Below are positions 49,133-59,744 of a DNA stretch of 64,000 nt, piece by piece (within the stretch, counting starts at the first letter, position 1; each line of letters begins with the position of its first letter). The DNA is from Paremcibacter congregatus (lineage in GTDB: Bacteria; Pseudomonadota; Alphaproteobacteria; Sphingomonadales; Emcibacteraceae). The position numbers and the translations under genes are program-made. The stretch covers positions 1,767,501-1,831,500 of the forward strand of contig NZ_CP041025.1 of NCBI RefSeq assembly GCF_006385135.1, written 5' to 3'. The notes beneath the pieces are model-generated. The model was not told the origin of the DNA. It was given only the letters and a program-made list of their open reading frames with translations, and made no database searches.

Positions 49133-50620
49133 AAAAATGGCGCAGTAGTTACTGAGTTCACTTACGAGGATGTCGCGGACGGAATAGTTGAATTTTCGCA
49201 CAGTGGTGGTACGGACCTTCCGCAACTGACACTGGCGCTGGAAAATGAGGCTGGGGTACTAGGTGAAGAGTTTGATGTTACAATTAAACTCGCTGATATT
49301 GATAATACTTATATTATTACTTCTGCGGGGCAATTTCCTTCTGGTTTGGTTATTGGTGCCAATGAAACCAAAATAATTGAATCTCCGTACGAATATTATT
49401 ACAGCAATTCAAATACTCAAACCCTGACCAATTATGGGTCTATCGAAGCGTCAACTTCAGAAGAGGGCTTTTTTGTGCCGATTCAATCCGATGCGATTGA
49501 ATCAGTTACAAATTATGGGAGAATAGAGGTGCTCGGAGGGAGCACATCAAGTGCGGTAAACTTGAAGGTTTCAGGCCAGTTTATTAATCACGGATTAGTA
49601 GAAGTCTACGTAAACCTTTCTTCTGATGATATTAATTATCAGGCGGCTGGCGCAGTTGCTATAGATATTATAAACACGGGAACTATCCTGGCATCTGGTG
49701 AAACAACGACCGGTGTTCTTGGTCAATTCGGTTTGAACCTCACAAACTCAGGCACAATTTATGCTAGTGGATCAGAAGTCACTACCGGGGTATTCGCCTT
49801 TGACAATGAAGCGTATATCACGAATAGCGGTGTGATCATGGCAATTGCAACAAATGATAATGCTGAACCGTCGAAAGGGATAGCGTTGTGGACTTATAAC
49901 AATAGTGTCGTAAATTCAGGCACAATCGTTGCGGATATAGCCATCGATTCCGTGTTGACAACCACTATTGATAATACAGGAAGCATTGAGGGAAATATTG
50001 ATCTGTCCTCCGAGGTAGATACCCTTTCTAATAAAGGCCTAATCAAGGGGGATATTATTCTCAATGGGGGAGATGATATTTATACTACCGTTGGAGGCCA
50101 GACTATTGGTATTGTTGACGGGGGTGCAGGGGATGATATGCTTCAGGGGGGGGGCGCGGCCGACTACTTAAAAGGGGGTGTTGGAAATGACAGCCTTTAC
50201 ACGGGCTCCGGTGGTGCCGATCACCTGTTCGGAGGTTACAACGATGATCTGCTCTATATTGAATCCACCGATTTCTCTATGCTGAATGGGGGAGACGGTG
50301 TGGACGCCGTTATTATTGCCATGAATGAGACCGCTATTGATTTTAGCCTGTATGCTAAAGATAATATCGAGAATATAGAACAAATTATTTTTGATGCCTC
50401 AGGCAGTAGTCTCAGTATCTCGCAACAGGATATTCTGGAAATGACCGATGACAATAACCAGATTATGATCATGGGCGATGTTGGTGATACAGTTGCATCT
50501 ACGGGACAAAACTGGGAGCAAGGAATTAACCAGGTGGTTGACGGGGAGACGTATCATACCTATACCTCGGGAGATGCCACCTTACTGGTGGATTCTGATA
50601 TTACGCAGACGATATCCTGA
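49133..50620 (+). pseudogene. C-terminal part of the RTX-type surface protein, separated by one stop codon
   Basis: This stretch continues the frame of 47471-49132 after TAA, with no good start codon of its own. It begins KNGAVVTEFTYEDVADGIVE and FSHSGG, which completes the CSPG/cadherin-like repeat cut by the stop (HG-x-x...G...FTYEDV...SHSGG). It then has repeated Asn/Thr/Gly-rich beta repeats (ITNSGVI; VVNSGTIVA; LTNSGTIYA) and C-terminal RTX nonapeptides (DGGAGDDMLQGGGAADYLKG; GVGNDSLYTGSGGADHLFGG). The end (SGDATLLVDSDITQTIS) resembles a type I secretion signal, acidic/hydroxylated with a terminal hydrophobic patch. If the stop is real, the secreted signal is lost unless there is readthrough. 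Confidence 0.75.
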
Positions 50621-50654: not shown

Positions 50655-52004
50655 ATGAAAAGTACAGTTTGGGGGAAATACATTTTGTATTTCGTCGTGA
50701 TCATTCTTGTAAGTATACAAGAAAACCATGGACATGCGGAAGAGAAAAACTCACCCGCCTATACTCAGCAGTTCAAAGAAAATATTCAGGCGGCGGTAAA
50801 AAACCATCCTCGTACAGCGGCCGCTATTGCCCAGCGGGACAGTTATCGATTTCGTCAACGCGAAGCTGAGGCGGGGCTGTACCCAACTCTGGATATGGGG
50901 CTTTCAGGACGTTATCGCCTGGCCGAGGATTTCGAGGAAAGGATTGATAATTTTAACGAGCGCACCCGCCGCAAGGAATCTGCTCATGCGACCCTGACCG
51001 GACGACAGTTGCTCTATGATGGGGGACAGACCTCAAACCGCATCGCCAGTGCCAAACATTCCTTCACCGCCGCCCATCAGGAATATGACCTAACGGCATC
51101 CGATGTGGCCTTGTTGGCGGTAGAAATGCATTTCCAGGTCATTTTCCAACGCAATCGTCAGATCCTGCACGAGGAAATCATAAGTGATCACAGGGATATG
51201 CTGGATAAGGTGACATTGCGATTTGAAAGCGGACGCGGCGCACAACGTGATGTGGCGCTATTACAATCCCGCCTGGCGCTGGCCGAAGCTGAAGCTTCGT
51301 CAGTGCGCAAAAGCCTGGAATCCAGTCTCAGTCAGTATGAAGAAAATTACGGCTTTGCTGCCCAGACGCTAAAGCGCCCTGAGCTTGCCCTGAATATTCC
51401 AGCAACTTTGTCGGAAGCTTTGGAAATAGGCTTTCAAAATAGTCCGTCTCTTAGCATGGCCGGGGCGATGACCCAGGCCTCCAAATCCACGGTTGCGGCG
51501 GAGAAAGCTGATCAATTGCCCCATGTATCATTGGAACTGGCGGCGACGAAGTATGATCTGGACCGGGGCAATGATGATTATGATGTCACCGGTCGGTTGG
51601 TTATGAATTATAATCTCTACAGTGGTGGAGCGACAACAGCGCGGATTGCACGCTCTCGCAAGGATTTCGAACGCACCCGTCATCTGGAAGCCGAAACCAA
51701 CCGTCGGGTAACCCGGGAAATCAAAGTGGCCTATCAAAATATGCTGTCTCAAAACGATCGGGTTTTAGCCCTGAAACGGGCCACGGACGCCAGTCTGAAA
51801 AATGCGGAACAGCTTCTCGAACAGTTTGAAGCAACCGGCGGGAGCCTGCTGTCTTTACTAGAAGCCAAGAAAGATTATTATCAGGCCCGTGAGCAATATA
51901 TGGCGGCTCTGGTCGAAAAGGATATTTTGCGTTACAGTCTGCTCGACGCCATGGGTACCCTGAACATGACATTGAATATCCGCATACAAAAGGCAGAAGA
52001 ATGA
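50655..52004 (+). CDS. TolC-family outer membrane protein of a type I secretion system
   Basis: A 449-residue outer membrane efflux protein with a signal peptide (about 1-28, ending HAEE). Two repeats of long coiled helices match the TolC fold: NHPRTAAAIAQRDSYRFRQR and EAEAGLYPTLDMGLSGRYRL in the first, VTLRFESGRGAQRDVALLQS and TKYDLDRGNDDYDVTGRLVM in the second. DGGQTSNRIASAKH and YSGGATTARIARS mark the strand-helix turns. It is of the LapE/AggA type and starts the three-gene tolC-ABC-hlyD set, 35 bases after the RTX protein's end. The stop overlaps the next start (ATGA). Confidence 0.92.
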   Translation: MKSTVWGKYILYFVVIILVSIQENHGHAEEKNSPAYTQQFKENIQAAVKNHPRTAAAIAQRDSYRFRQREAEAGLYPTLDMGLSGRYRLAEDFEERIDNFNERTRRKESAHATLTGRQLLYDGGQTSNRIASAKHSFTAAHQEYDLTASDVALLAVEMHFQVIFQRNRQILHEEIISDHRDMLDKVTLRFESGRGAQRDVALLQSRLALAEAEASSVRKSLESSLSQYEENYGFAAQTLKRPELALNIPATLSEALEIGFQNSPSLSMAGAMTQASKSTVAAEKADQLPHVSLELAATKYDLDRGNDDYDVTGRLVMNYNLYSGGATTARIARSRKDFERTRHLEAETNRRVTREIKVAYQNMLSQNDRVLALKRATDASLKNAEQLLEQFEATGGSLLSLLEAKKDYYQAREQYMAALVEKDILRYSLLDAMGTLNMTLNIRIQKAEE

Positions 52005-53776
52005 GCGACGCACAAGACACGACGCTGGGCGCGACCACGACGCCAGGAAAAATCTGGCAGGACCACTGGTTCTGGGGCGCTTTTCGTCAAAACTGGTGGA
52101 CCTACGGCCAAATTATTCTGGCGGCCGTCATGATCAATTTCTTTTCCCTCGGCAGCTCTGTCTTTATCATGACAGTCTACGACCGTGTGATCCCCAATAA
52201 TGCCGTTGACAGCCTGGTGGCGCTCTGCGTCGGGATGTTTATTATAATCGGGTTTGATTTTCTTTTGAAATATCTCAGGGCCTATTTTATTGATACCGCC
52301 GGGCAGAATGTGGATATGACCGTCGCCAACGGCATCTTTGACCGGATCATGAAATTGAAACTCTCGACCCAGAAAGGCTCGACCGGGGGCTTGGTCAATA
52401 CCGTGCGTGAATTTGAATCCATACGGGATTTCTGTACCTCCGCCACACTGGCGACAGTGGTCGATGTGCCGTTTATCTTTCTTTTTCTTCTGGTCATTGC
52501 CATCATAGGGGGGCCAATTGTCATCGTGCCCGCTCTGGCTGTTCCATTTGTCCTGATTGTCGGTTTCGCCATCCAACCCTTTTTGTCACGATTTTCCAAG
52601 GAAGGCATGCAGGAAGGCGGCAGCAAGCAAAGTACGTTGGTGGAAATGGTTTCTGGTCTGGAAACTCTGAAAACCCTGGGGTCTGATCAGTTGTTTCAAG
52701 ATCGCTGGTCCAAGGCTGTGGAAAGCCATTCCAAGGTCAGCCTGCGGTCCCGCCTGTTCAGTCAGATCGCCATTAACAGCGCCGCTTCGGCTCAGCAGCT
52801 GACACAGGTAGGGATTGTTGCCTATGGTTTCGTCCTGATTATGCAGGGCGAACTATCCATTGGTGGTCTGATTGCCTGCGTGATTATTGCTGGACGTTGT
52901 CTGGCGCCGCTGGGGCAGCTGGCCAACCTTCTGACACGGTACAATCATGCTAAAACTGCTTATGCTGCGCTTGATAAACTGATGAAGCAGGATAGTGAAG
53001 AAACCAGCGATCGGGATTTTATCCGGCGAGAAAGCCTGAAGGGCAAAATTGAATTCAAGAATGTCACATTTAAATACCCGGATCAGCCGATGCGGGCGCT
53101 GGACAGTGTATCTTTCACAGTAGAACCGGGAGAGAAAATCGGAGTTCTTGGTAAAATCGGGTCCGGTAAAAGCACGGTACTCAGGCTCGCCGCCGGTTTA
53201 TATGAACCGGATGAAGGCGCTGTGCTGATTGATGACACAGACTTACGTCAGATTGTCCCGGAAGATCTGCGCCGTAACATGGCGGTTGTCCTCCAGGATA
53301 TTGTGCTGTTTTCCGGCAGCATCAAGGAAAATATCACCATGGGGCATGATGATGTCGCCGATGCGGATATCTTAAGGGCGGCGGAAATCAGTGGGGCCCA
53401 GGACTTCCTGGGCAAAATCCCCAACGGTTATGACGTGAAGCTGCGTGATCGGGGCGAGGGGCTGTCCGGCGGCCAGAAGCAAGCTTTGGCCATTGCCCGG
53501 GCATTGGTGCGCAAGGCGCCGCTGGTGATGATGGATGAACCAACCAGTGCCATGGACACAAGTTCGGAAATGAAACTGATTTCTCAGTTGAAAGAAGAAC
53601 TCAAAGATCGAACTTTTCTGATTGTCACCCACCGGCCAAGTATGCTGGCGCTGGTTGACAAGATCATCGTCATTGATCAGGGCAAGGTTGTCGCCCAGGG
53701 ACCGAAAGATGATGTGTTAAAATTTCTTGGGGGCGGACAGAACGCGACCATCCCCGGCGCGGCCAGGAAGGGATAG
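52001..53776 (+). CDS. Type I secretion ABC transporter (permease-ATPase, LssB/LapB-like without C39 domain)
   Basis: A 591-residue half transporter: an N-terminal tail of about 30 residues, an ABC membrane domain with about five to six helices (IILAAVMINFFSLGSSVFIM; VFIMTVYDRVIPNNAVDSLV), and the nucleotide-binding domain with Walker A GKIGSGKST, signature LSGGQKQALAIARALV and Walker B LVMMDEPTSAMD. LapB/LssB proteins usually begin with a C39-like peptidase domain of about 130 residues; it is missing here, so cargo recognition relies on the C-terminal signal. It pairs with the HlyD-like gene four bases downstream. Confidence 0.93.
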   Translation: MSDAQDTTLGATTTPGKIWQDHWFWGAFRQNWWTYGQIILAAVMINFFSLGSSVFIMTVYDRVIPNNAVDSLVALCVGMFIIIGFDFLLKYLRAYFIDTAGQNVDMTVANGIFDRIMKLKLSTQKGSTGGLVNTVREFESIRDFCTSATLATVVDVPFIFLFLLVIAIIGGPIVIVPALAVPFVLIVGFAIQPFLSRFSKEGMQEGGSKQSTLVEMVSGLETLKTLGSDQLFQDRWSKAVESHSKVSLRSRLFSQIAINSAASAQQLTQVGIVAYGFVLIMQGELSIGGLIACVIIAGRCLAPLGQLANLLTRYNHAKTAYAALDKLMKQDSEETSDRDFIRRESLKGKIEFKNVTFKYPDQPMRALDSVSFTVEPGEKIGVLGKIGSGKSTVLRLAAGLYEPDEGAVLIDDTDLRQIVPEDLRRNMAVVLQDIVLFSGSIKENITMGHDDVADADILRAAEISGAQDFLGKIPNGYDVKLRDRGEGLSGGQKQALAIARALVRKAPLVMMDEPTSAMDTSSEMKLISQLKEELKDRTFLIVTHRPSMLALVDKIIVIDQGKVVAQGPKDDVLKFLGGGQNATIPGAARKG

Positions 53777-53779
53777 GTT

Positions 53780-55057
53780 ATGACGAAGTTAAAGGTTAAG
53801 CCTACCTCGGCGTCAAACATCCTCTTGCTGAGTATCTTTGGGTTTTTTGTATTGTTCATCCTCTGGGCGTCACTGGCGGAACTGGATGAAGTGACCCGGG
53901 CGACAGGCCGTGTAGTGCCGAGCAAGCAGATTCAGGTGATCCAGAATCTTGAAGGCGGAATCATTAAAGAAATTCTGGTTAAACAGGGAGACAGCGTCAA
54001 GGCCGGTGACGTGCTGGTTCGGCTCGACCGGACCCAGTTCGATGCGGATTTTAACCGCAATGAAGAAGAATTCATGATGCTCAAATCATCTTTGATCCGT
54101 CTAACGGCCGAAAGTCAGTTCGAGGTGCCGGAATTCGAACCGTCATTCACGGAAAAATATCCAACCTTGGTGATCAATGAGCAAAATCTCTATCATGCCC
54201 GTCGCGCGGAGTTTGAAGCGTCCATCAGCAGCCTGAGTGCCCGACTGAAACAGATTGAACAATCGGCGATTGAGGCCGAGATCAGCCTTATCAGTGCACG
54301 CTCCGCCGAGAAGACCACTGCCGCGGAGGTGGAAATGCTGAAACCACTGGTCGAAAAAGGGATTGAACCACGCCTGGAACTGATCCGGGCCGAACAACGC
54401 CTGATACAGGCGGAAGGCGATCATAAAATTGCGGCGTTGAATGTGGGTAAAGCGGCTAAATCGGTAGAGGAAGTCAATCTGCAGATTGAGGCCGCACGTC
54501 AGAAATTCCGTGCCAGCGCCCTGACGGAACTGAACGATGCACAGAACCAGATAAACAAGTTGCTCGACGCTTTGCCGGCGTTGTCAGACAAGGTCGACCG
54601 CACCAATGTGATTGCCTCGACCGATGGCACCATAAACCGGGTTCTGGTCAGTACGGTCGGCGGTGTGATCAAGCCGGGCATGCCGATTGTGGAATTGGTG
54701 CCGCTTGATGATACGCTGCTGATCGAAGCCGAGGTTCAGCCATCGGATATTGCATTTTTGCGCCCGGGCCAACCGGCGCGGGTCAAATTAACGGCCTATG
54801 ATTATTCCCGTTATGGATCGCTTGATGCAGAGGTCGAGAATATTTCTCCCGATGCCATTATGAATGAGCAGAAACAAAATGTTTATATCATCAAGATCCG
54901 CACGACGGAAAACAGCCTGATGACCGGTGAAGGTGATTTTCCAATCCTGCCAGGCATGGTCGCGGAAGTCGACATCCTGAATGGTAAAAAATCGATCATG
55001 CGCTATTTGATGAATCCGGTGCTGAAGCTTAAGGACAATGCCTTCCGGGAACGGTAA
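53780..55057 (+). CDS. HlyD-family type I secretion adaptor
   Basis: A 425-residue membrane fusion protein: one N-terminal membrane helix (ILLLSIFGFFVLFILWASLA, residues about 13-32), a lipoyl-like half (GRVVPSKQIQVIQNLEGGII; EILVKQGDSVKAGDVLVRLD), a coiled-coil hairpin (about 95-275), then the second lipoyl half and C-terminal beta-barrel (VIASTDGTINRVLVSTVGGV; PGQPARVKLTAYDYSRYGSL; PGMVAEVDILNGKKS). It bridges the ABC transporter and the TolC-like channel. The typical length and RSEED-like C-terminal barrel support a complete protein. Confidence 0.94.
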   Translation: MTKLKVKPTSASNILLLSIFGFFVLFILWASLAELDEVTRATGRVVPSKQIQVIQNLEGGIIKEILVKQGDSVKAGDVLVRLDRTQFDADFNRNEEEFMMLKSSLIRLTAESQFEVPEFEPSFTEKYPTLVINEQNLYHARRAEFEASISSLSARLKQIEQSAIEAEISLISARSAEKTTAAEVEMLKPLVEKGIEPRLELIRAEQRLIQAEGDHKIAALNVGKAAKSVEEVNLQIEAARQKFRASALTELNDAQNQINKLLDALPALSDKVDRTNVIASTDGTINRVLVSTVGGVIKPGMPIVELVPLDDTLLIEAEVQPSDIAFLRPGQPARVKLTAYDYSRYGSLDAEVENISPDAIMNEQKQNVYIIKIRTTENSLMTGEGDFPILPGMVAEVDILNGKKSIMRYLMNPVLKLKDNAFRER

Positions 55058-55078: not shown

Positions 55079-55498
55079 TTATTTTTCCACCACATCCCGG
55101 TGCATGGGGGCGAGCAGGGCGAGAAGCTTGTTTTGTGTGGCTGTCGGGATGTTGGCTTCCCGCATGGCTTGCTGCAGGTTTTCCACCAGTGCATTGAAAT
55201 GCAAAGTGGTCAATTCCAATCCGACATGGGCTTTTTTCATCGTGACCCCGGTGTAGATACAGGGTCCGCCGGTGAGCTGACACACCTGATCGGAAATATG
55301 TTTCGCCAGCCGGTCCATTTTACTGCGGGCAAAGGTGTGTTTGATCCGGGGGTCTTGCAATGATAAATCCAGAGTTCGGGTCACCACCTGGGTGATAGCG
55401 GCCTGTCCGCCGATCTTGTCATAGAGAGTTTCGGCCTGGCCCGGTGTGGAGAAACCGAGCGCGATGATTACAGCGCATAGTGAGAACCATTTTGTCAT
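55079..55498 (-). CDS. Periplasmic group 1 truncated hemoglobin
   Basis: A 139-residue protein with a signal peptide (MTKWFSLCAVIIALGFSTPG, cleaved after AQA) and then a 2/2 globin: LYDKIGGQAAITQVVTRTLD, DPRIKHTFARSKMDRLAKHI and the proximal-His region TGVTMKKAHVGLELTTLHFN. Truncated globins bind O2 or NO; export is unusual for this group. A CPC-like pair (QVCQLTGGPCIY) might form a disulfide. The start at 55498 is one base after the DUF3034 stop, so the two are coupled. The neighbours (DUF3034, cupredoxin-like protein, EAL protein) form a conserved set I have seen in other proteobacteria. Confidence 0.85.
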   Translation of the reverse strand: MTKWFSLCAVIIALGFSTPGQAETLYDKIGGQAAITQVVTRTLDLSLQDPRIKHTFARSKMDRLAKHISDQVCQLTGGPCIYTGVTMKKAHVGLELTTLHFNALVENLQQAMREANIPTATQNKLLALLAPMHRDVVEK

Positions 55499-55499
55499 C

Positions 55500-56390
55500 T
55501 TAAAATCCTGCCTGTAAAGAGAGATACGCCCCGCGCTGTCTGCCTTGAAGGGCAATGTCGCCCAGATCAAGGGCGGCAAGGGTTAGGGAAATATTTTTGT
55601 TAAAGAAATACGCCAGATAAGCGGCGGCGGCGTTTTGTTCCCGGGCGAAGGCAAGGTTGTCGGGCTTCGTCCGGTAATCCACCCCTGCCACCAGGTTTGA
55701 GGTAATCATGTAAGCGAGAGAAAATTCCCCTTGAAGGGAGTGCCCGGACGTTGCACTGCCAAATCCTAGAAGACCATACTGGTTGGCTTCAGTGAGCCGC
55801 GCCGTGGCGCTGATGATCAGGCTGTGATCAAGCAATATTTTCGTTGCTGCGAGGTAATACTCAAAACTGTCGTTGTCTGCTGACCCGAGGGCGCGGACCA
55901 AGGCGTCTTCCTTGTTGTTTTTATACGTCATGCCGACCGCGATCTGGGGCAGGAGCTTATCCTGATCATAAACGGCATTGCCATACAGACGAATTTTCGC
56001 CCCGATGATATCCTGATCAAAGACATACCCTTCACCCAGGCCGAGACGTCCCCCGGCGTCCCGTGTGTTGAACCAGTGGTGAGTGTAGCTCAATTCCACC
56101 CGGTCATAGAGGCCAACGGAGAAACCGGTCGCCTGCAGGGTGAAATCAGATAAGACAGCCGTCGTATGGTGGGCATTGACGCCGACACCTCGATCAGACC
56201 CGTACCCCGTGATCAGGGCCCATGTGCTCAGGCCGCTGCCGCCGGCGCCTTCGATCTGGCTGACACCGCCGGTGGCGACAAGCTTGCCTTGGTCAAAAAG
56301 ACCGTCTGCCGACGCCACAGATGGCACGAGCAGAACACCGGAGATAATAACTGCTTTTGCGAGGCGTTTATGAAAGCTGGAGAGAGACAT
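55500..56390 (-). CDS. DUF3034-family outer-membrane-like protein
   Basis: A 296-residue exported protein. Signal peptide about 1-28 (VIISGVLLVPSVASADG), then alternating amphipathic beta strands typical of a small outer membrane barrel: LFDQGKLVATGGVSQIEGAG, VGLYDRVELSYTHHWFNTRD, KIRLYGNAVYD, IAVGMTYKNN, and a terminal Phe (AYLSLQAGF). Length and the GGVSQIEGAGG start fit DUF3034. No function is assigned. The start at 56390 is chosen at the signal peptide. It is the first gene of a pair with the truncated globin and is divergent from the MauL-type gene. Confidence 0.85.
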   Translation of the reverse strand: MSLSSFHKRLAKAVIISGVLLVPSVASADGLFDQGKLVATGGVSQIEGAGGSGLSTWALITGYGSDRGVGVNAHHTTAVLSDFTLQATGFSVGLYDRVELSYTHHWFNTRDAGGRLGLGEGYVFDQDIIGAKIRLYGNAVYDQDKLLPQIAVGMTYKNNKEDALVRALGSADNDSFEYYLAATKILLDHSLIISATARLTEANQYGLLGFGSATSGHSLQGEFSLAYMITSNLVAGVDYRTKPDNLAFAREQNAAAAYLAYFFNKNISLTLAALDLGDIALQGRQRGAYLSLQAGF

Positions 56391-56534
56391 TTTTATTTTC
56401 CGACTATGACATCTTGCTCTGGGTATCAAGGAATGTTTCAAGGCAAGGCCATATATTAAAGATACTTTAAACTTTTCTACATAAGGTCGACCCTATATCT
56501 GACGCGTTAATTATTTCTGAATTTAGGGATTGAA

Positions 56535-57155
56535 ATGGCTAATCTGTATGGTTTTATAGCATGTCTGATGGTGGGAACGCTGTGGAGCAGTGCCGCTTTT
56601 GCGGGATCGGCGACGGTTTCAGTTCTTGATCAGGAAGGCAAACCTGTCCCCAATGCTGTCGTCAGTTTTACGTCCGGAGATATCAGTAAAAACAATTTGT
56701 CCCCGGGTCAGGACCAGTCGATCATGAGCCAGCAAAACAAACAATTTGTCCCTCATGTTTTACCGGTTCAGGTCGACAGCAACGTACTATTTCCCAATAA
56801 AGATGACTACCGCCATATGGTATATTCCTTTTCCAAGGCCAAAACGTTCCAGATCAAGCTTTACGGGGGAGAAAACCAGATTTCCGTTCCCTTTGAAAAG
56901 CCGGGTGTGGTGCCGGTCGGATGCAATATACATGATGACATGCTGGGCTATATTGTTGTCCTGAACACGGGGCATTTTGCCAAGACCGATGAAAAGGGGC
57001 AGGCTATTGTGTCCGATATTCCTTCAGGAACCTACAGGACCGAGATATGGCATCCGGTTCTCCAGAACAAAGCGGCAGAGTATACACAGGAGCTCGACAT
57101 GCCGGCGGATAATACATCGCTGCCAGTCACATTCACGATTAGCCTGAAACAATAG
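56535..57155 (+). CDS. Cupredoxin-like periplasmic protein (MauL/methylamine-utilization type)
   Basis: A 206-residue exported protein: signal peptide about 1-23 (ending AAFAG), a short Ig-like part (SATVSVLDQEGKPVPNAVVS), a cupredoxin core and a C-terminal beta part. Possible type 1 copper ligands are His 94 (DDYRHMVYSF), Cys 130, His 133 and Met 136 (PVGCNIHDDML). The Cys-x2-His-x2-Met spacing is shorter at the Met than in plastocyanin but suits a blue-copper site. Annotated relatives are called methylamine utilization proteins, yet no mau gene is near. It precedes the EAL gene by 35 bases. Confidence 0.85.
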   Translation: MANLYGFIACLMVGTLWSSAAFAGSATVSVLDQEGKPVPNAVVSFTSGDISKNNLSPGQDQSIMSQQNKQFVPHVLPVQVDSNVLFPNKDDYRHMVYSFSKAKTFQIKLYGGENQISVPFEKPGVVPVGCNIHDDMLGYIVVLNTGHFAKTDEKGQAIVSDIPSGTYRTEIWHPVLQNKAAEYTQELDMPADNTSLPVTFTISLKQ

Positions 57156-57190
57156 TATTTTTAAATCTGATCCTTAAAGAACCCTCTCGT

Positions 57191-59581
57191 ATGACACTTT
57201 CTTTTACAAATTTTAAGACCAAACTTGTTGTCTTCTTTGTTTCGTTATTTGTTCTGGTTCAGATCATTACGAATACGGCGGTCTATATTACGACGAAAAA
57301 TAACTTAGAAAATCAGGCTGTTTCAAACCTGACATTCAGTGGTCAGGCCATTCGTCGCGCCGTGGCCCAGCGTAATCAGGAACTGAGCGCCGCAGCGGAA
57401 CTTCTGTCCCGGGACTTTGGGTTTCGGGAGGCCGTTGCGACAAAAGATACGCCCACTATTATTTCAGCATTACAAAACCTGACCACCCGTATTGATACCG
57501 ATCGGGCCTTTATCGTGTCTATGGATCAGAAAGTATTGGCCCAATATGGTACAGAGGAACGGACGGATTTATCTGTAAATAAGGACAAAGCCCTTTTCCC
57601 GCCAGAGGTGTTCGCTGCGGTAGAAAAAAACGGTGAGGCTTCTGGCTTTATTCAGATCGACGGAGTGATGTATGAAATCGTCATCTTGCCTGTTCTGGCG
57701 CCGACGCCGATTGCGTGGATGGTATTGGGGATAGAAATCAACAAAGCTTATCTCGACGACATCAAGCAAACGCTGCCCGTAGGACTGGAAATCAGCATTG
57801 TGCATCATCAGGAAAATTCAGAAGCCCTGCTCGCGGCGGATACTTTTTCTCTGGCAAATGAACTGGAAAATACATTTCTGCCTGACTTAACTGATTTAAA
57901 AAGCGCCGAAGTTTTTCAGCAAAACATCACCAATCAGCGGTATATGTCGCTGACTCTGCCTTTACAGTCTGTGACCAGCCGCCATACTATTTATGCGGTT
58001 GTACATTACTCACTGGATGTGGTTTTTAGTCCGTTCAAGCCACTTATGATTACACTTGCCGGGGTTTTGCTGGCCGGGATGATCGCGTTTATCTATGAAA
58101 GTTTCGTGATCGCCCGCAGTGTGACCCGTCCCCTGCAGGAACTGCGTACTGCGGCGGTTAATATTTCAAAAGGTGTTTATCAGCCTTTGAATGACCTGCA
58201 CCAGAATGACGAATTTGGCGACCTTGCGGCAAGTTTCAATAAAATGATTGAAGATATTGATATCCGTGAGCAGAAAATCACCTTTCAGGCTGAACACGAC
58301 CTGGAGACCGGGCTGCCGAACCGGTTGAAATTTGAAACAGTGCTTGATCAGTTGATCGCCGAAAACCCGCCGGGTGAGGCGGGGAGCCAAAATATTGATG
58401 TTTTTATTTTGACTTTCCAGTCCATTGCCGAGGTCAGGAATAGTTTGGGATATTCTGTCGCTGAAACGCTGATTTCACAAATGGGTGCCCATATTTCAGC
58501 AACGCTTCCTGCAGCCGATGTGTTTTTTGCCCGGCTGAACACCATATCTTTTATCCTGGCGCTTAGGGAGCCTGTCGAAGATCGTCTGCATACGATGCTG
58601 ACATTGCTGAAGAGTTTCGACAAGCCCTTTATCTGTGGTGATTACAATATTGATATGACGGTACAGATTGGGGGAGCGACCTATCCAGAACACGGTAAAA
58701 CGGCGGCCGATCTGATACAGAAAACCCACATCGCGATTTCACAATCATCAGGCACGGCGCATCACTACGGCATCTATAATGCGGAAAAAGACACTCAGGA
58801 TACGCAAAAACTATCCTTGATGGGTGATTTACGGGCGAGTATGAATAAAAATGAGGTTTTTTTCCATTACCAGCCCAAGATTGATTTGAAAACCGGTCGG
58901 ATGACCCATGTCGAAGCCCTGATGCGTTGGATACACCCTGAAAGGGGATTTGTGGCCCCGGATGAATTTATCCTGCTGGCCGAACAAACCGGCCATATTC
59001 ACGCCTTGACCGCCTGGGGACTGGAACAGACCATTGATGCCTGCGCCAGATGGCGTGAAGCCGGCTACCGACTGAAAATGGCGATGAATTTGTCAGCGAA
59101 AGATCTTGTCAATCGGCAACTTCCGGATCAGATCCAGCGGTTGATGACGGAAAAACGGGTTTCCGCGGAATGGATGGTCTTTGAAGTTACAGAAAGTGCC
59201 GTCATGCAGGAGCCGGAGATCGTGCTGGATACCCTTAACCGCATGTCGGATTTGGGGCTGACCCTTTCGATTGACGATTATGGTACGGGCTATTCATCCC
59301 TAAGCTATTTAAAAGAGCTTCCGGTGAGCGAGTTGAAAATTGATAAGTCATTTGTTCTCAGTCTTGCCACCAATAAGAACGATCAGATTCTGGTGCGGTC
59401 CACCATTGATCTTGCCCATAATCTGGGACTTAAGGTGACGGCAGAGGGGGTTGAGGATCAGGTCAGTGCTGAACTGCTGAAAGCTTATGGGTGTGATGTG
59501 GGCCAGGGGTATTATTTCAGCCGGCCAGTATCAGAAGAAGATCTGCTGTCCTATTACAGAGAACAGCGGCAGGCGTCCTGA
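57191..59581 (+). CDS. Membrane c-di-GMP phosphodiesterase (dCache-HAMP-degenerate GGDEF-EAL)
   Basis: A 796-residue signalling protein. The first membrane helix is about residues 13-32, followed by a periplasmic Cache-like sensor (about 34-270), a second helix (about 278-300), HAMP (SVTRPLQELRTAAVNISKGV) and a GGDEF-like domain whose signature reads ARLNTISFILAL instead of RxGGDEF, so no cyclase activity is expected. The EAL domain is intact: HVEALMRWIHP, NLSAKDLV, FEVTESAV, DDYGTGYSSLSYL and LKIDKSFV. It should hydrolyse c-di-GMP in response to a periplasmic signal. It follows the cupredoxin-like gene and may report on it or on the neighbouring globin and DUF3034 proteins. Confidence 0.93.
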   Translation: MTLSFTNFKTKLVVFFVSLFVLVQIITNTAVYITTKNNLENQAVSNLTFSGQAIRRAVAQRNQELSAAAELLSRDFGFREAVATKDTPTIISALQNLTTRIDTDRAFIVSMDQKVLAQYGTEERTDLSVNKDKALFPPEVFAAVEKNGEASGFIQIDGVMYEIVILPVLAPTPIAWMVLGIEINKAYLDDIKQTLPVGLEISIVHHQENSEALLAADTFSLANELENTFLPDLTDLKSAEVFQQNITNQRYMSLTLPLQSVTSRHTIYAVVHYSLDVVFSPFKPLMITLAGVLLAGMIAFIYESFVIARSVTRPLQELRTAAVNISKGVYQPLNDLHQNDEFGDLAASFNKMIEDIDIREQKITFQAEHDLETGLPNRLKFETVLDQLIAENPPGEAGSQNIDVFILTFQSIAEVRNSLGYSVAETLISQMGAHISATLPAADVFFARLNTISFILALREPVEDRLHTMLTLLKSFDKPFICGDYNIDMTVQIGGATYPEHGKTAADLIQKTHIAISQSSGTAHHYGIYNAEKDTQDTQKLSLMGDLRASMNKNEVFFHYQPKIDLKTGRMTHVEALMRWIHPERGFVAPDEFILLAEQTGHIHALTAWGLEQTIDACARWREAGYRLKMAMNLSAKDLVNRQLPDQIQRLMTEKRVSAEWMVFEVTESAVMQEPEIVLDTLNRMSDLGLTLSIDDYGTGYSSLSYLKELPVSELKIDKSFVLSLATNKNDQILVRSTIDLAHNLGLKVTAEGVEDQVSAELLKAYGCDVGQGYYFSRPVSEEDLLSYYREQRQAS

Positions 59582-59654: not shown

Positions 59655-59744
59655 TGGCGGAGAGGGTGGGATTCGAACCCACGATGGGCTTGCACCCATG
59701 CCGGTTTTCAAGACCGGTGCATTCAACCGCTCTGCCACCTCTCC
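59655..59744 (-). tRNA. tRNA-Ser (anticodon UGA)
   Basis: On the minus strand the acceptor GGAGAGG pairs with CCTCTCC, with discriminator G and CCA encoded. The anticodon loop CTTGAAA holds TGA closed by a CCGGT/ACCGG stem. The long variable arm (TGGGTGCAAGCCCA) and T-arm GTTCGAATC are present. Class II form and the UGA anticodon fix it as serine. Confidence 0.96.

Follow-up and report, generated by a model that had tools for sequence, protein, structure and literature searches.

What is accomplished by an outer-membrane protein of the DUF3034 family, an exported globin, a cupredoxin, and a receptor for cyclic di-GMP (c-di-GMP) signaling that are encoded side by side? This question is raised by a four-gene module of Paremcibacter congregatus, located in a 64,000-nucleotide stretch of contig NZ_CP041025.1 (positions 1,767,501 to 1,831,500), which is referred to here as the window and whose own coordinates are used throughout. 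The module is real, widespread, and apparently undescribed. We read it, with about even confidence, as a trans-envelope heme/copper sensing system for redox state, nitric oxide (NO), or reactive species, with exchangeable outputs; it would thus be a variant of trans-envelope sensory signaling. Its features are as follows.

55079 to 55498, minus strand: truncated globin of group 1 type, exported (by eye), 139 amino acids (Bac_globin; HbN relatives in the Protein Data Bank).
55500 to 56390, minus strand: DUF3034 (PF11231) protein, predicted outer-membrane protein, 296 amino acids (Pfam; AlphaFold2; FapF fold match).
56391 to 56534, no strand: divergent intergenic region of 144 bases (no clear FNR/CRP-like box).
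56535 to 57155, plus strand: cupredoxin, exported (by eye), 206 amino acids, probably nested in a transthyretin-like/carboxypeptidase-regulatory sandwich (ligands; AlphaFold2).
57191 to 59581, plus strand: transmembrane receptor with dCache_3, HAMP, degenerate GGDEF, and EAL domains, 796 amino acids (Pfam; intact catalytic EAL residues).

The DUF3034 and globin genes follow one another on the minus strand, and the cupredoxin and EAL genes follow one another on the plus strand across the 144-base gap. The DUF3034 gene begins with ATG and ends with TAA (55502 to 55500, minus strand), and the globin ATG at 55498 lies one base past that stop. An earlier note on this DNA, made from the sequence alone, had placed the genes, strands, gap, and one-base spacing in the same way, and its label of "Cache-EAL" was correct, with dCache_3 and EAL both recognized by Pfam. 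A search of the divergent promoter for an FNR/CRP-like box was unconvincing (0 of 34 with one mismatch; 5 of 34 with two, versus 1.6 expected).

The grouping of the four genes is far beyond chance. A sample of 398 Pseudomonadota genomes was searched for DUF3034, with the globin alignment, and with the full-length cupredoxin, and the overlaps were counted from the match lists. DUF3034 was present in 39 genomes. The exported globin subfamily scored at least 142 bits in 41 genomes, separated by a clean gap from the next match at 92 bits, and it was found in all 39 DUF3034 genomes versus 2 of the 359 genomes without DUF3034 (Fisher p of 5e-52, which kinship among the genomes makes too small). The full-length cupredoxin (at least 119 bits) was found in 52 genomes, among them 38 of the 39 with DUF3034; 14 sampled genomes carried the cupredoxin without DUF3034. 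In public genomes, DUF3034 is encoded by more than 580 stretches; viral copies were looked for, and none was found.

Neighborhoods were then compared at 120 loci, from 40 genomes plus 80 named loci chosen as those matching the window best rather than drawn at random, with genes called as mechanical open frames. The globin gene lies directly 3' of DUF3034 in all 39 DUF3034-bearing genomes of the sample and at 117 of the 120 loci, the three exceptions (L077, L082, and L130) having no globin match. Apparent globin-DUF3034 fusions at L046, L058, and L066 were rejected as products of over-long open frames. Three layouts were observed: cupredoxin-EAL-DUF3034-globin in one direction, mostly in one DUF3034 clade outside the class of the window; DUF3034-globin-cupredoxin-EAL in Caballeronia and its kin; and the divergent arrangement of the window, in alphaproteobacteria. 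The earlier note had asked whether the genes lie apart in most genomes; they do not, as all four are adjacent in 30 of the 39 DUF3034 genomes. At L040, EAL is on the opposite strand, 1.7 kb away. The cupredoxin-EAL pair occupies a separate site in 5/39 genomes (L224, L225, L226, L228, and L229), G126 has its cupredoxin at a separate locus (L227), G019 has a cupredoxin nearby with no EAL seen, and no cupredoxin was found in G078. A second DUF3034-globin copy in G078 (G078:C3:72188-73313) is broken by in-frame stops; in a genome without a cupredoxin match, this suggests decay.

On the DUF3034 tree, layout labels require 17 changes versus 63.9 when shuffled. The window falls in a clade of five, apart from the main divergent clade; besides the EAL layout of the window, this clade contains a histidine kinase locus (L076) and three loci at which no receptor adjoins the pair. 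In Caballeronia and Novosphingobium, copies of the module are also present on large plasmids, where the annotations read DUF3034 family protein, group 1 truncated hemoglobin, EAL domain protein, and, for the cupredoxin, methylamine utilization protein or carboxypeptidase regulatory-like protein.

The set comprises two sub-modules, DUF3034 with the globin and the cupredoxin with the dCache receptor. DUF3034-globin without a cupredoxin occurred in a single sampled genome. Stand-alone cupredoxins have a neighbor of the dCache-EAL type in six fetched genomes (L214, L216, and L219 to L222), and in G154 the neighbor is a dCache_3-HAMP-Ser/Thr protein kinase (L223:2329-5025), an unusual receptor architecture. 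This asymmetry, in which cupredoxin-receptor pairs occur alone and barrel-globin pairs almost never do, suggests that the cupredoxin-receptor pair is the core and the barrel-globin pair an upstream input.

The outputs beside DUF3034-globin are varied. Accompanied by a short cupredoxin, they include a HAMP chemoreceptor (L080), histidine kinases (L076, L081, and L083, with L089 and L144 assigned from their sequence cluster), GGDEF-EAL proteins (L086, L090, and L099), and a HATPase protein (L152). At four loci of the Xanthomonadaceae type (L098, L116, L133, and L135), a cupredoxin is accompanied by a short membrane protein that has a periplasmic domain but lacks a recognized output domain. Since the outputs vary, even inside the clade of the window, the front end appears to be more constant than the output. 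The earlier proposal, which linked a heme/copper set in the periplasm to a c-di-GMP phosphodiesterase, therefore holds in that the combination recurs, but histidine kinase, chemoreceptor, and Ser/Thr kinase outputs also exist. Biofilm release, also proposed in that note, is unsupported and cannot be general because the outputs are swapped.

In an exploratory count of loci that are not independent by kinship, a ChrR-type cupin gene with a nearby extracytoplasmic function (ECF) sigma gene, within 3.4 kb, was found at seven loci with no adjacent receptor versus 0 of 82 with a receptor. ChrR-type cupin anti-sigma/ECF pairs are known for singlet-oxygen and peroxide responses. At L100, L129, L131, L075, and L121, an ECF sigma gene and a ChrR-type cupin or RskA-type anti-sigma gene adjoin DUF3034-globin, with a Lipoprotein_15 gene in between at L100 and L131 as well. 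A high-potential iron-sulfur protein is encoded directly 3' of the globin at L128 (L128:5087-5398), possibly as a redox substitute for the cupredoxin. At L215, L217, L230, and L234, a stand-alone cupredoxin is followed by a protein of about 400 amino acids with no clear Pfam match, weakly porin-like at L234; these are perhaps another barrel-cupredoxin pair.

The individual proteins were characterized by profile, residue, and structure comparisons. DUF3034 matches its Pfam family over the full length and above the curated cutoff (1e-87, 294 bits, positions 1 to 255 of 255). AlphaFold2, from a shallow alignment of 26 sequences, gave 12 strands with a mean predicted local distance difference test score (pLDDT) of 81.8, and the protein ends in Phe, consistent with a predicted outer-membrane beta-barrel. 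The nearest solved folds were those of FapF (Z 20.1), KdgM and NanC (about 18.5), and COG4313 (17.9), although a common barrel fold shows no function; a sequence search against solved structures returned nothing meaningful. The 12-strand barrel is shared with the FapF, KdgM, and COG4313 channels, and FapF and COG4313 also align with part of the N-terminal segment, but identity is about 10%, and an invariant glycine-rich N-terminal segment is peculiar to DUF3034. This segment, before the first long strand, is the best conserved part (T40, G42, G48, G51, and G53), and charged strand residues (E99; K132; K157; E222; E238/R240/K242) are invariant or nearly so. From the model, DUF3034 is probably a plugged 12-strand barrel with a charged lumen. 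Two mentions of DUF3034 in the literature are apparently unrelated, one looking like a slip for DUF3037 and the other concerning an actinobacterial protein.

The globin matches Bac_globin (1.2e-17) and the group 1 truncated hemoglobin profile. HbN is its closest solved relative (3e-25, whole domain; 1idr and 2gl3), and the top entries are distal-pocket variants. The proximal His F8 is present in 116/116 globins (MKKAH in the window), as in HbN, and the protein probably binds heme, judged from these residues. Unlike HbN, the window globin is exported, has an extra Cys pair, and lacks the distal pair Tyr B10/Gln E11, which is typical of HbN-like function rather than of every group 1 member. B10 is Val, Leu, Ile, or Met in most sequences (Leu in the window) and Tyr in 7/116; E11 is Leu, Phe, or Ile (Ile in the window) and Gln in 0/116. 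This loss makes a classical O2-binding globin less likely, and the earlier notion of an O2, NO, or redox sensor is reasonable as a sensor but weakened as to O2. Tyr B10/Gln E11 supports NO dioxygenation in HbN. Both Cys (CQLTGGPC in the window) are present in 112 of 117 globins and neither in 5, with a single Cys never observed, an all-or-none pattern of the kind expected for a disulfide. In the one-direction layout, 18 of 24 globins have a lipobox by pattern, and more by eye; the globin is probably a lipoprotein in many gammaproteobacteria and soluble in the window. Export of the globin, DUF3034, and the cupredoxin was judged by eye from N-terminal hydrophobic segments and is supported by the lipobox-type N termini of most gammaproteobacterial globins and by the DUF3034 barrel prediction.

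For the cupredoxin, Pfam gave a sub-threshold match to Cupredoxin_1 (0.0048) and a match to CarboxypepD_reg (9.5e-6). The type 1 copper ligands H94, C130, H133, and M136 are invariant among 21 aligned sequences, and residues 59 to 144 of the AlphaFold2 model (pLDDT 90.4, likewise from a shallow alignment) match plastocyanin and NirK domains at Z of about 12.5 (plastocyanin, Z 12.5, root mean square deviation 1.7 over 83 residues), a plastocyanin-like fold. The conserved ligands and predicted structure support the copper site and the fold, and copper binding is likely from the residues. Transthyretin-like matches span residues 22 to 206, yet about 85 to 95 residues align, which fits an insertion of the cupredoxin into a transthyretin-like sandwich. 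Amicyanin- and plastocyanin-type cupredoxins have a like fold (Z 11 to 12.7) and His-Cys-His-Met ligands but are not nested in this way.

The receptor contains EAL (2.8e-71), HAMP, a weak GGDEF, and dCache_3 at residues 42 to 265. The EAL metal and catalytic residues E575, N633, E665, D695, D696, K716, E752, and Q772 are conserved in 71/71 sequences, with E/D variation at one site. In the window the GGDEF site is degenerate, but several relatives have it intact; since it varies while the EAL residues are kept, EAL activity is probably the constant one.

Linkage, the dependence pattern, conserved heme, copper, and catalytic residues, predicted folds, and the exchange of outputs, all obtained by computation, are consistent with the following working model. 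DUF3034 would form a plugged 12-strand barrel in the outer membrane, and the globin, coexpressed with it, would bind heme on the periplasmic side. At the outer membrane, the barrel-globin pair would present or process a signal, the copper protein would carry or report redox or ligand state to the periplasmic dCache domain of the inner-membrane receptor, and the receptor would relay it via HAMP to the output, in the window an EAL phosphodiesterase, changing c-di-GMP. We infer physical contact in the order barrel-globin-cupredoxin-receptor, as we do the direction of the signal (phosphodiesterase activity up or down). Redox state, NO, or reactive oxygen is the likelier signal than simple O2 storage, given the lost distal residues, the Cys pair, and the ChrR association. 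More tentatively, electrons or ligand state may pass from the barrel and heme globin through the blue-copper protein to exchangeable receptors in the inner membrane (phosphodiesterase, histidine kinase, chemoreceptor, or Ser/Thr kinase), constituting a new trans-envelope input cassette.

Several points weigh against a sensing system. Loading with heme and copper is assumed from residues, and the globin may act as an enzyme and not as a sensor. About one-third of the loci have no receptor beside the barrel-globin pair; the sampled cases mostly keep a cupredoxin-EAL pair elsewhere, and G078 and G019 do not fit. The shorter, different cupredoxin of the alternative receptors may have been recruited independently.

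Open-access literature contained no description of the four-gene module and no function assigned to DUF3034 or the exported globin family. The closest working analogue is YfiBNR (TpbB) of Pseudomonas aeruginosa, in which a Cys-containing protein conveys the periplasmic redox state to a c-di-GMP enzyme of the inner membrane (PMC3375315). Like the module, it spans the envelope, with an outer-membrane lipoprotein, a periplasmic Cys protein, and an inner-membrane HAMP c-di-GMP enzyme, but it has no heme or copper protein, and YfiN is a cyclase rather than an EAL phosphodiesterase. The Pfam/NCBIfam content differs from YfiB (OmpA-like lipoprotein), YfiR, and YfiN (cyclase), the common families being only HAMP/GGDEF, and the two systems are analogous only. 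The Stenotrophomonas Bts module was set aside as consisting of different genes. Constant input with exchangeable outputs offers a route to the message reported by a heme-copper pair in the periplasm and to the way in which c-di-GMP, chemotaxis, or kinase signaling is driven by it, and a functional assignment would annotate the many organisms that encode DUF3034.

Among other explanations, an uptake or detoxification unit is possible, if doubtful: the barrel would admit a small molecule, the globin and cupredoxin would chemically transform it (NO or peroxide, for instance) or pass electrons to it, and the receptor would merely report the substrate or adjust lifestyle. The likeness of the barrel to the FapF, KdgM/NanC, and COG4313 channels, the standing of globins and blue-copper proteins as classic redox partners, and the ECF sigma/ChrR-type genes near the seven loci with no adjacent receptor agree with this proposal. 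It is opposed by the loss of Tyr B10/Gln E11, by the lack of a conserved reductase in the module, and by the persistence of the cupredoxin with receptors even without barrel and globin. The latter pairs, together with the invariant type 1 ligands, would suit copper sensing, in which the cupredoxin informs the receptor of periplasmic copper and the globin and barrel are accessory. This is unlikely, as the barrel gene nearly always has a heme protein attached, no recurrent copper-export genes were apparent among neighbor clusters, and a mononuclear type 1 site is better suited to electron transfer than to sensing of metal levels.

An electron chain to or from the cell exterior through barrel, heme, and cupredoxin, with the receptor as secondary control, is quite improbable: a 12-strand barrel would be too small to enclose the globin, and the module has no conserved c-type cytochrome or oxidase. 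The layout nonetheless recalls Cyc2-rusticyanin, and the order barrel, heme protein, cupredoxin is reminiscent of electron conduits known from outer membranes. Fusions of exported truncated-hemoglobin domains to multiheme cytochromes in cable bacteria (PMC11976967) also favor such a chain. That unrelated genes are together by chance or shared regulation is scarcely credible, even though components can split between loci, since linkage persists in three layouts, several classes, and differing flanks, with Fisher p values of 5e-52 and 3e-40 (inflated by kinship).

The genes surrounding the module in the window are as follows.

49346 to 50620: RTX/repeat-type open frame, upstream of the four-gene module.
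50655 to 52004: outer-membrane efflux protein of a type I secretion set.
52001 to 53776: ABC transporter of the same set.
53780 to 55057: HlyD-type adaptor of the same set.
59655 to 59744: tRNA-Ser(TGA), directly after the EAL gene.

The type I secretion set is complete, with 21 bases between the end of its HlyD-type gene and the stop of the globin. The suggestion in the earlier note that this RTX locus is the target of the module was not borne out, as none of 120 other copies has a TolC/ABC/HlyD type I secretion set nearby; flanking genes, the RTX locus included, are otherwise unconserved across loci. Because DUF3034 is absent from the sampled genomes of the same genus, the secretion locus and the four-gene module may represent an insertion beside tRNA-Ser(TGA). 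Beyond this tRNA gene lie lytic-transglycosylase-like, RlpA-like, D-alanyl-D-alanine carboxypeptidase-like, and thymidylate-kinase-like genes.

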